Positions 3,368 to 21,037 of a stretch of 64,000 bases of DNA are shown piece by piece. Each line of letters opens with the position of its first letter. The first letter of the stretch is position 1. The stretch is from a virus. Location of the stretch: IMG/VR virus record IMGVR_UViG_3300046002_004029, positions 1 through 64,000 of that record. The stretch is one strand, 5' to 3'. The position numbers were made by a program, and so were the translations under genes. The notes beneath the pieces are model-generated. The model saw only the letters and a list, made by a program, of their open reading frames with translations. It made no database searches and was not told the DNA's origin.

Positions 3368-3788
3368 GCTCTCTTCTATTAATTAACCCTTTATTCGGTT
3401 TTTTATTTACATTACACCATTTCATAAATTCTAACTTTATGTTTGGATCATTATCATCTATATTTACTTTTTTTAACAATGTACTTTTAGAGAAAGCATT
3501 TATACCTATGTTATAAGATATACTTACCAGAGCGTTAAATTGGTTTTGTGTTAAAGGTTTTTTTATTAAATCAGAAACCTTGTTTGCAAAATCATCTGCT
3601 ATTTTTTTGAACATATTGAAAGCATCAACCTCTGTTATAGGCTTATCCGCCATAGTTACCTTCTTGCCATCCAAATAGAACGTTGATCCATAACCTATAG
3701 TTGCAACTTTTGCCGAACACAAGTATGGTTTTGCTCTAAAACCTTCAAATCCAGTTATCAATTTATAACCTATATCATTTAACTTCAT
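3342..3788 (-). CDS. Endolysin, GH24 lysozyme (muramidase)
   Basis: A 148-residue phage lysozyme of glycoside hydrolase family 24, which cleaves the MurNAc-GlcNAc bond of peptidoglycan. The catalytic Glu is E15 in GFEGF, and the T4-like triad Glu-x8-Asp-x5-Thr appears as E15, C24, T30 (IGYGST follows). The usual Asp is therefore a Cys, a substitution known among GH24 enzymes. There is no signal peptide or SAR helix, so export depends on a holin. It sits 1 nt after the small membrane gene upstream and overlaps the spanin gene downstream. Confidence 0.9.
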   Translation of the reverse strand: MKLNDIGYKLITGFEGFRAKPYLCSAKVATIGYGSTFYLDGKKVTMADKPITEVDAFNMFKKIADDFANKVSDLIKKPLTQNQFNALVSISYNIGINAFSKSTLLKKVNIDDNDPNIKLEFMKWCNVNKKPNKGLINRREHEVLIYFS

Positions 3789-18463: not shown

Positions 18464-18816
18464 GGGGGCGAATGGCTTTGACAGGTTATGCAAACTAATA
18501 CAATCAGCCAGAGAGATAACTGTAAACTAAGGTGAATTTAATAAATGACAACACAGTAAAATTGTTAGACATCAATCAGATTGAGGCTAATATGAATATG
18601 GTTTTTGCATTGATTAACTCTAATGTTGAAGAGCTAGAAATAGCTGCGTAGTAGACATTAACAAGATTTCTTGGTTAGATTAAATCAAGTGGTGGTTTTG
18701 TCTACACTAGTAGACCCCAGTTGTATGATACTCCAACTTTAAAACCGTATCGACAAGCTGTATAAATTGTATTAACTAAAGTAATCTGGACCTGGGTTCG
18801 AAACCCAGCGCCTCCA
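18464..18816 (+). ncRNA. ssrA: Phage tmRNA (SsrA RNA)
   Basis: A 353-nt RNA. The 5' end GGGGGCG is complementary to CGCCTCC at 18809-18815 (one G-U), followed by discriminator A and no encoded CCA. After the acceptor comes GGCTTTGACAGG, the conserved tmRNA 5' motif. Near the 3' end are TGGAC and a perfect T arm CTGGG-TTCGAAA-CCCAG. The open frame ends VEELEIAA with two TAG stops (18649-18654). If GCT at 18586 is the resume codon the tag has 21 residues, but the resume site is not fixed by the sequence. It rescues stalled ribosomes and tags nascent chains for proteolysis. No smpB was seen in the window. Confidence 0.93.
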
Positions 18817-18949
18817 CAACTGTTATTTGATCTTAGTGCTAGGAAAATAACAAGCGATTGGACGGAACTAAGCGTCTCGAATTGCCCTGTAACAACTCAG
18901 TGTTACCAGATAAGATAGGTTTGAATCCAAGTATGTGAAGTCTTATCAA
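18817..18949 (+). ncRNA. Structured RNA of four consecutive hairpins
   Basis: No gene. Four hairpins follow each other: GTTATTT/AAATAAC (18823-18851), CGATT-GGACG/CGTCT-CG-AATTG (about 18854-18883), CTGTAAC/GTTACCAG with a bulge (about 18887-18909), and GATAAGA/TCTTATC (18910-18946) enclosing a GTTTGAATCC word. It lies between the tmRNA and the first tRNA-like element and is probably transcribed with them. It may be a processing region or a separate RNA. No known family was assigned. Confidence 0.5.
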
Positions 18950-18951
18950 AT

Positions 18952-19076
18952 GGTCAAGTGGTGGAATTGGTAGACACTAAACAACTGTATTGAGGTTAAG
19001 CGATCCTCACTTTAATAAAAAAATTGATCAACGCAGAAGTGCGGATGCGGTACAGGTTCGAATCCTGTCTTGACCA
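18952..19076 (+). ncRNA. Oversized tRNA-like element A (125 nt)
   Basis: The acceptor stem GGTCAAG/CTTGACC (18952-18958 with 19069-19075), discriminator A, a class II Leu-like D region (TGGTGGAATTGGTAGACAC) and a perfect T arm ACAGG-TTCGAAT-CCTGT (19052-19068) are clear. The RNA is 30-40 nt longer than a tRNA-Leu. No standard 7-nt anticodon loop can be placed. Candidate stems are CTAAAC/GTTAAG, with one mismatch and a 12-nt loop, or TGAGG/CCTCA with a 9-nt loop. A CGCA-GAAG-TGCG variable-arm-like hairpin is present. It could be an intron-bearing tRNA, a decayed tRNA, or a tRNA-mimic RNA. Confidence 0.65.
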
Positions 19077-19153
19077 CGATGTCGGATAGCGACCGAATGA
19101 ACTTAGTGGTAACAACGGAATAACCTAAGAGAGATTGACAAAAACTCCGTACA
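19077..19153 (+). other. Spacer between tRNA-like elements A and B
   Basis: Contains a hairpin CTTAG/CTAAG (about 19100-19131) and the word AACTTAGTGG, which recurs before element C. GATTGA also occurs here and again 20 nt later as the acceptor strand of B. Confidence 0.4.
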
Positions 19154-19246
19154 GATTGAGCGGTAGAATGGCTAACTATCTATACCGATTCGGTTAGAGG
19201 CAAAAGAAAATAAGCCCTATTGCAGGTTCGAGTCCTGTCTCAATCA
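19154..19246 (+). ncRNA. tRNA-like element B (93 nt)
   Basis: The acceptor GATTGAG/CTCAATC (19154-19160 with 19239-19245), discriminator A and T arm GCAGG-TTCGAGT-CCTGT (19222-19238) are well formed. The D region is too short (GGTAGAATGGCT). The anticodon-arm position shows CTAAC/GTTAG enclosing 16 nt, in which ACCG-ATT-CGGT is self-complementary. A GGC/GCC variable-arm-like stem follows. No anticodon can be assigned with confidence. The 3' flank CTAATAAT matches that of element C. Confidence 0.6.
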
Positions 19247-19310
19247 CTAATAATTAAATTAAATACTATGACTAATGTAAACTTAGTGGAAACACTATAA
19301 ACATAACAAT

Positions 19311-19487
19311 AACTAAGTGGCGGAATAGTTTAGCTTGTACCGCAAACGCAAGTGCTTAACGGATAAGCTTAAATAGTACAGACGCAAAAAGATAAGGATA
19401 GAGTCATCGCGGGTGTGGAATGGAAAAAGCCCGTTCGAGTCCTTACTTGGAAATCCACAAATGTAGGTTCGAGCCCTACCTTAGTTA
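19311..19487 (+). ncRNA. Oversized tRNA-like element C (177 nt)
   Basis: The acceptor AACTAAG/CTTAGTT (19311-19317 with 19480-19486), discriminator A, a Leu-like GTGGCGGAATAG D region and T arm GTAGG-TTCGAGC-CCTAC (19463-19479) are clear. About 90 extra nt are distributed in nested stems: TTTAGCTT/AAGCTTAAA in the D-loop position, CGGG/CCCG, and TGTGGA/TCCACA in the variable position, the last enclosing a second GTTCGAGTCC word. An upstream ACTTAGT (about 19290) could compete with the acceptor strand ACTAAGT. Identity unknown. Confidence 0.55.
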
Positions 19488-20756: not shown

Positions 20757-20928
20757 GTCCTTGCTATTACTTGGGTGAAATAGTCGACTCAGGGTGCAGT
20801 GAGTTCGTTAAACAAGAACTGTACAAAATGTGGACACTCGGGGTTACGTGAAAATTAACCAAGCCTTGCTAGCTGGTTGTAACTGAAATATGGGATAAAG
20901 AATTTAACCGGTCCTCGGATTAACAAAA
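20757..20928 (+). ncRNA. Highly structured leader RNA upstream of element D
   Basis: About 170 nt with no gene and many consecutive stems: CTATT/AATAG, ACTCA/TGAGT, AGTTC/GAACT, GTTAC/GTAAC enclosing AACCA-A-GC/GC-TGGTT, and TTAACCG/CGG-A-TTAA. Together with element D it forms a 268-nt structured unit. I looked for group I intron core elements and could not align them convincingly. Possibly a novel RNA or a diverged intron. Confidence 0.5.
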
Positions 20929-20929
20929 G

Positions 20930-21023
20930 AACTAAGTACTGGGCTAAATGTATCCTGTTCATTTAACGGAATGCCGGCATGTTACAACCGACGGGTTTTG
21001 GGGTTCGATTCCCCTTTTAGTTC
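20930..21023 (+). ncRNA. tRNA-like element D (94 nt)
   Basis: The acceptor AACTAAG/TTTAGTT (20930-20936 with 21016-21022, one G-U), discriminator C, and T arm GGGG-TTCGATT-CCCC (21000-21014) are visible. GTAC/GTAT could be a D stem. The middle holds TCC-T-GTT/AAC-GGA around CATTT and the palindrome ATGCCGGCAT. CAT could be read as a Met anticodon, but the stem is irregular. It shares its acceptor strand with element C. It could be a diverged or intron-bearing tRNA. Confidence 0.55.
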
Positions 21024-21037
21024 CTAAATTAAATATC

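Follow-up and report, generated by a model that had tools for sequence, protein, structure and literature searches.

Oversized tRNA-like elements beside a phage tmRNA gene: a candidate class of tRNA-Leu-scaffolded RNAs with exchangeable payloads

The RNA gene cluster of the window

The stretch of DNA analyzed here, called the window throughout, comprises positions 1 to 64,000 of the IMG/VR virus record IMGVR_UViG_3300046002_004029 and makes up most of this 67,575-base record. At issue is a cluster of three oversized transfer RNA (tRNA)-like elements, E1, E2 and E3, located downstream of a transfer-messenger RNA (tmRNA) gene, the order on one strand being tmRNA, E1, E2, E3 (Table 1). A first-pass annotation had described three elements of 125, 93 and 177 nucleotides (nt), all of which have a T arm, a discriminator base and a fully paired acceptor stem of 7 bp but no clear 7-nt anticodon loop. 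Our analysis confirmed the three lengths and the acceptor stems; in E1, E2 and E3 the discriminator is an A, and the T arm has five base pairs and a TTCGANN loop. The lack of an anticodon loop was also upheld: ARAGORN with default settings found no tRNA in the window, and its calls with introns allowed did not differ from those of shuffled controls. The tmRNA gene, a conserved leader between E1 and E2, and a fourth RNA (E4) had been overlooked.

Table 1. Positions of the RNA features discussed in the text (window numbering)
Feature	Position	Strand	Remarks
Phage tmRNA gene	18464..18819	+	RF00023, 77.4 bits; directly upstream of E1-E3, same strand
E1, Leu-type tRNA scaffold, 125 nt	18952..19076	+	RF00005, 38.1 bits; 30-member alignment with covariation; A73 at 19076
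E1 payload ("E1 core"), replacing anticodon and variable arms	18978..19051	+	At least 45 viral contigs; loop-loop pair covaries
Conserved leader between E1 and E2	19078..19153	+	Alignment; stem ACGGA/TCCGT in three members, ACGGG/CCCGT in L009
E2, scaffold GATTGAG/CTCAATC, A73, divergent D arm (GTA/TAT), 93 nt	19154..19246	+	7-member family
E2 payload, ACCG-NNN(N)-CGGT hairpin and TAGAGGCAAANNNAAATAAGYCC	19179..19221	+	Invariant alignment columns across several acceptor stems
E3, Leu-type scaffold AACTAAG/CTTAGTT, A73, extra D-loop hairpin, 177 nt	19311..19487	+	
D-loop hairpin insert of E3	19327..19373	+	Missing from the E3 homolog L177:838-964 (-)
E3 payload	19386..19462	+	93.5% identity over 93 nt with L177, other acceptor stem; 2 compensatory pairs
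E4, conserved non-coding RNA, about 190 nt, tRNA-like 3' domain (20929-21024)	about 20838..21024	+	Acceptor GAACTAA/TTAGTTC and T arm

The terminase, portal and primase of the window match PHROG phage families, and from these matches we read the phage as crAss-like. Its tmRNA resembles those of Flavobacterium and Cellulophaga phages. A tRNA search of the whole virus record returned E1-E3 and the tmRNA end but no further tRNA. There is thus no sign of a role in codon usage, as no ordinary tRNA was detected in the window or the record. The gap between the tmRNA and E1 (18823-18950) folded no better than shuffled sequence and had no clear relatives.

Payload families and their scaffolds

To characterize the elements, loci were fetched for comparison (designated by L-numbers), 160 of them through relatives of two nearby phage proteins. 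E1 exceeds the 29-bit cut-off of the Rfam tRNA model RF00005 with an untypical 69-nt stretch included, while E2 and E3 score below it. The acceptor, D and T stems of an RF00005-type tRNA are all present in E1 and covary. The payload consists of AACTGYA, a TGAGG/CCTCA hairpin, an A-rich strand and a CGCA-GRAG-TGCG hairpin, the loop of which pairs with CTGY. In the alignment of 30 members, this middle part was nearly invariant and 98% of the cells were paired in the proposed structure. Double changes were observed in 13 of the 27 pairs, against 5.7 in shuffles, and covariation reached 0.256, compared with 0.112 after shuffling and at most 0.071 when the partners were slid, which abolished the signal. 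The loop-loop pair between the N of CTGN and the N' of GN'AG was U-A in 16 members, C-G in 10 and G-C in one (other or unpaired in three), and on a tree computed from the other columns its two positions changed at least 8 and at least 10 times. This contact joins the former anticodon region to the former variable arm and thus does not belong to the tRNA fold.

A pattern for the middle part of E1 matched 28, later 44, viral stretches, and one divergent member in L267 brings the family to the total given in Table 1; close homologs of E1 are found in L007, L009 and L036. A tight version of the pattern had zero matches in the 84,980 bacterial and archaeal genomes of the GTDB collection. The core also occurs in L183 within a quite different scaffold, and in L207 it is enclosed by a plain stem, the T arm being absent. 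Some members have an 8-nt T loop (TATCGAAT or similar in L166, L172, L202 and L204; TTCACAAT in L176 and L191). A second pseudoknot seen by eye, in which the hairpin loop would pair with the strand that follows the A-rich stretch, was rejected because it did not outperform random re-pairing (p = 0.56). The core was likewise rejected, by eye, as a small open reading frame: its loop length varies by one base between subfamilies, leaving no common frame.

The payloads of E2 and E3 also recur on other scaffolds. The E2 core was found in 7 contigs with several differing acceptor stems, and a comparison of L168 with L385 and L384 revealed the same flanks around this locus, with the E2 payload in the latter two and another payload in L168. 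The E3 core is known from two contigs, the window and L177, the latter with a different acceptor and no D-loop hairpin. L177 harbors four tandem scaffolds that have the acceptor AGTCAGG in common and carry differing payloads, two of which are the E1 and E3 cores. The D arm ended at position 32 or beyond in 28 of 179 scaffolds.

All fetched loci (4.4 Mb) were then scanned uniformly, with Markov shuffles of the same sequence as the control. This yielded 241 oversized scaffolds (184 distinct Leu-type and 57 other) against 2 in the shuffles (none Leu-type, 2 other), a ratio that is no genome-wide frequency, since such patterns had in part guided the choice of the loci. The combination of acceptor and T arm is far beyond chance. 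A scaffold pattern that ignores the payload matched at least 120 stretches in viral contigs. In bacterial genomes it matched 41 loci, of which a few were ordinary or doubtful and most were true scaffolds with seven acceptor pairs. Since scaffolds adjoin terminase, portal, primase or recombination genes in Riemerella, Sphingobacterium, Chitinophaga, Chryseobacterium and Paenibacillus genomes, these bacterial copies sit in prophages of cultured Bacteroidota and of one Paenibacillus.

The 206 payloads of at least 40 nt fell into 141 sequence clusters. Besides E1, 20 payload families had several members, and these contained 26 compensatory pairs, compared with a mean of 8.5 and a maximum of 15 after column shuffling. 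No known Rfam family was found within the payloads of four loci. When E1, the L177 array and a scaffold from a Sphingobacterium prophage were compared by BLAST with annotated phages, the hits were limited to short fragments of tRNAs and a single weak match to a faecal phage. Judging from these sequence comparisons, the payload is a module independent of the scaffold and exchanged between scaffolds, with the scaffold itself, covarying payloads, arrays and spread among phages all in evidence. The suggestion of the first-pass annotation that the elements form a new class of tRNA-mimic RNA is supported, and the class is much larger than the cluster in the window.

Leucine features and competing explanations

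The scaffolds retain T8, A14, A15, the D-loop GG, U48, U54-U55-C56 and A58, as well as A73 in 82-91% of cases; the search pattern had dictated T8, A14 and, in part, A15, but neither U48 nor A73. U48 occurs in 94% of the scaffolds and in 45% of the remaining tRNA-like genes in these loci. The acceptor AGTCAGG, with the pair A1-U72, is common to 103 of the 184 Leu-type scaffolds. Genuine tRNA-Leu genes on the same contigs mostly start with G (GCCGAGA, GGCTCCT, GCCCAGG, GCTTCCA) and carry anticodons, and scaffolds and tRNA-Leu are therefore distinct classes. Leucine identity in Escherichia coli depends on A73, A15-U48, G18 G19 and the contacts between D and T loops, the anticodon and variable arm being dispensable, and tRNA-Leu variants lacking both arms stay active if A73 and the D-T contacts are kept (PMC9976931). 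Because the scaffolds keep these identity elements and arm-less tRNA-Leu is still leucylated, they look, by analogy, like natural minimal substrates of leucyl-tRNA synthetase (LeuRS).

We favor, as rather probable, a model where E1-E3 are tRNA-scaffolded phage RNAs: the payload would be the effector, and host tRNA enzymes would process, stabilize and probably leucylate the molecule. An intact tRNA elbow, derived from the acceptor stem, D arm and T arm of tRNA-Leu, would hold a structured payload in the position of the anticodon and variable arms. The three RNAs would be transcribed in a cluster with the tmRNA, and exact ends would be generated by the host RNase P, the 3' tRNA-processing enzymes and the CCA-adding enzyme. 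The tRNA fold, perhaps together with charging, would shield the RNAs from exonucleases, and the host LeuRS, being independent of the anticodon, could charge many of the scaffolds. The exchangeable payload would then act as effector, most likely by binding and modulating a host or defence protein. Payload diversity and exchange suggest a conflict with host factors, which at this stage is our guess.

Several points weigh against this model. A73 is absent in 9-18% of the scaffolds, and any charging could therefore not extend to all of them. The acceptor pair A1-U72 is also unusual: in tRNA-Leu the end pair is usually G1-C72. A15 and U48 are general features of the tRNA fold too, and for many members A14/A15 were demanded by the search pattern. 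The payload of E3 is represented by two sequences. A broader proposal, which we regard as evenly poised between right and wrong, is that of a general phage RNA-delivery chassis, in which a host-processed and leucylated tRNA-Leu scaffold would carry more than 100 interchangeable families of effectors against host or defence proteins, swapped as cassettes between phages.

The first-pass annotation had also considered that the elements might be tRNAs with very short introns or decayed tRNAs. If they were ordinary tRNAs, splicing should restore an anticodon arm, and ARAGORN with introns allowed did call E1, and L007 likewise, as tRNA-Tyr(gta), placing an intron of 32 nt at 37/38. However, it made calls for 141 of the 184 scaffolds, their anticodons covering all isotypes (Leu 13%), and for 143-156 of the same scaffolds with shuffled payloads (Leu 14%), so the check recommended by that annotation did return a call but the call carries no weight. 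In addition, the anticodon stem needed for the intron reading (AACAA/TTGAT) is lost in L007 and L009, the supposed intron of E1 is among its best-conserved parts and has no common junction, and no exons joining to a conserved anticodon arm were found. We give introns almost no chance. Decay of tRNA genes through accumulated small hairpin insertions would agree with the varying sequences of the D-loop hairpin inserts and with the poor fold statistics of E2 taken alone. It is contradicted by the covariation of acceptor and T stems, by payloads that are conserved and covary, as the paired cells and double changes of E1 and the excess of compensatory pairs over shuffles in other payload families attest, and by the occurrence of the same payload in differing scaffolds. 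Decay is already refuted for E1 and E2 and is scarcely credible as a general explanation.

A role in translation is rather unlikely, even if the retained leucine identity elements, the position of E1 next to a tmRNA and the predominance of Leu-type D arms among the oversized scaffolds all speak for it. Leucyl-acceptor RNAs charged by LeuRS would be carried by EF-Tu into ribosomes in a tmRNA-like manner, or would sequester LeuRS, EF-Tu or leucine, the payload adapting the RNA to the ribosome. Some 141 unrelated payload clusters fit a single ribosomal target poorly, the leucine bias stems in part from the search pattern while 57 oversized scaffolds have other D arms, and by eye no tag-like open frame is common to the E1 subfamilies. 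Y RNAs of the YrlA type, tRNA-mimicking partners of a Ro60 ring protein, are an improbable explanation. YrlA likewise couples a tRNA-like domain to another module (as cited in PMC7790460), and a subgroup of Lachnospiraceae scaffolds lies beside or under sub-threshold matches to the YrlA model RF02553. This model, however, has no match in the window, the payloads are mutually unrelated, and a TROVE domain was found in none of 20 virus records carrying E1, including that of the window, some of which may be fragments. The scaffold repeats could finally act at the DNA level, as recombination or integration sites with an incidental RNA shape. Near-identical scaffold ends repeated around differing inserts would favor cassette exchange by homologous recombination, and recombination may well explain how payloads move, but covariation in the stems and in the loop-loop contact requires an RNA, which makes a DNA-level function very improbable.

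Neighboring RNAs and relation to known systems

The leader, which directly precedes E2 in the window, has a relative (L009:6697-6772) that directly precedes the tmRNA in L009; given the change of its stem from ACGGA/TCCGT to ACGGG/CCCGT, an H-type pseudoknot may form. DNA resembling E4 was found in L096, L102, L007, L108, L105, L086 and L087. E4 also has two complementary strands, one upstream of the acceptor (GGTTGTAAC) and one inside (GTTACAACC).

Other unusual RNAs were observed in the fetched loci. A mini-module that combines an acceptor-like stem of its own (e.g. ACCCCGT..ACGGGGT) with a T-arm-like hairpin stands free in L168 near 2155-2205 and is nested in scaffold D loops in L193 (within 3546-3742), L208 and L216. 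A scaffold of the form GGGCGTG-AAATGGTTAG...GCAGGTTCGATTCCTGCCACGTCCA was present in five relatives of this phage found by their primase (L116:2097, L138:3432, L141:379, L151:2328 and L156:2399), its payload differing in each and often having its own closing stem. Of 240 scaffolds, 7 (in L184, L309, L333, L211, L221, L253 and L289) are preceded, at a distance of at most 60 nt, by a spacer hairpin GACxGCT-TGGAAAGACA-AGC with a varying stem, against a background of about 0.0006 per 60 nt. L009 (5951-6023) and L011 (5327-5399) each have a tRNA-like gene that is normal in length and unusual in its anticodon loop, for which ARAGORN gives the anticodon "ataa". Arrays of oversized tRNA-like genes were also seen in Lachnospiraceae (L340, L341, L361, L363, L365 and L377); their payloads share TCATG..GTGA and CAGCAATC-like motifs, and in L341 a gene for a DUF2828/DUF7788 protein adjoins them.

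To our knowledge, few natural tRNA mimics have been described (tmRNA, Y RNAs). The tmRNA, phage-borne here too, resembles E1-E3 in that it has a tRNA acceptor and T arm and a replaced anticodon region, and its alanyl acceptor is charged by an anticodon-independent synthetase, the same freedom that we propose for the scaffolds with leucine. E1-E3 differ in their stem-bearing D arm, their Leu-type elbow, the lack of a tag reading frame and their mutually unrelated payloads, and within the window the tmRNA model RF00023 matched the tmRNA gene but none of the three. YrlA, which the literature places in bacteria and phages, also joins a tRNA-mimic domain to a second functional RNA module. The scaffolds differ in having many payload families; no Ro60/TROVE gene was found in the phages tested, and the YrlA model matched nowhere in the window. 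In design, the tmRNA and YrlA come closest, and on the tests above the scaffolds belong to neither. GOLLD and ROOL are large structured phage RNAs, often near tRNAs; they differ from the scaffolds in being far larger, multimeric and without a tRNA scaffold, and they had no Rfam match here.

The closest match in principle is man-made. The engineered tRNA scaffold for expressing recombinant RNA in E. coli (for example, PMC3753655) follows the same design, with a structured RNA in the anticodon region that is processed and protected, whereas the phage scaffolds are natural, arrayed and Leu-type. The minimal tRNA-Leu variants (PMC9976931) share the arm-less elbow and acceptor end with the scaffolds, keeping A15-U48, G18 G19, U54-A58 and A73, but they are laboratory constructs without a payload. 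No description of natural tRNA-scaffold RNAs was found in Rfam or in the open literature searched, most subscription journals and bioRxiv preprints lying outside that search.

If our model holds, phages would use a tRNA as a reusable carrier of many unrelated RNAs, a trick that biotechnologists invented to express aptamers. The finding opens up a large set of structured phage RNAs, some of them carried by prophages in cultured bacteria and thus accessible to immediate experiment. Caution is also advisable when a tRNA call in a phage genome comes out as "odd" or "undetermined", since the gene behind it may be of an entirely different kind.
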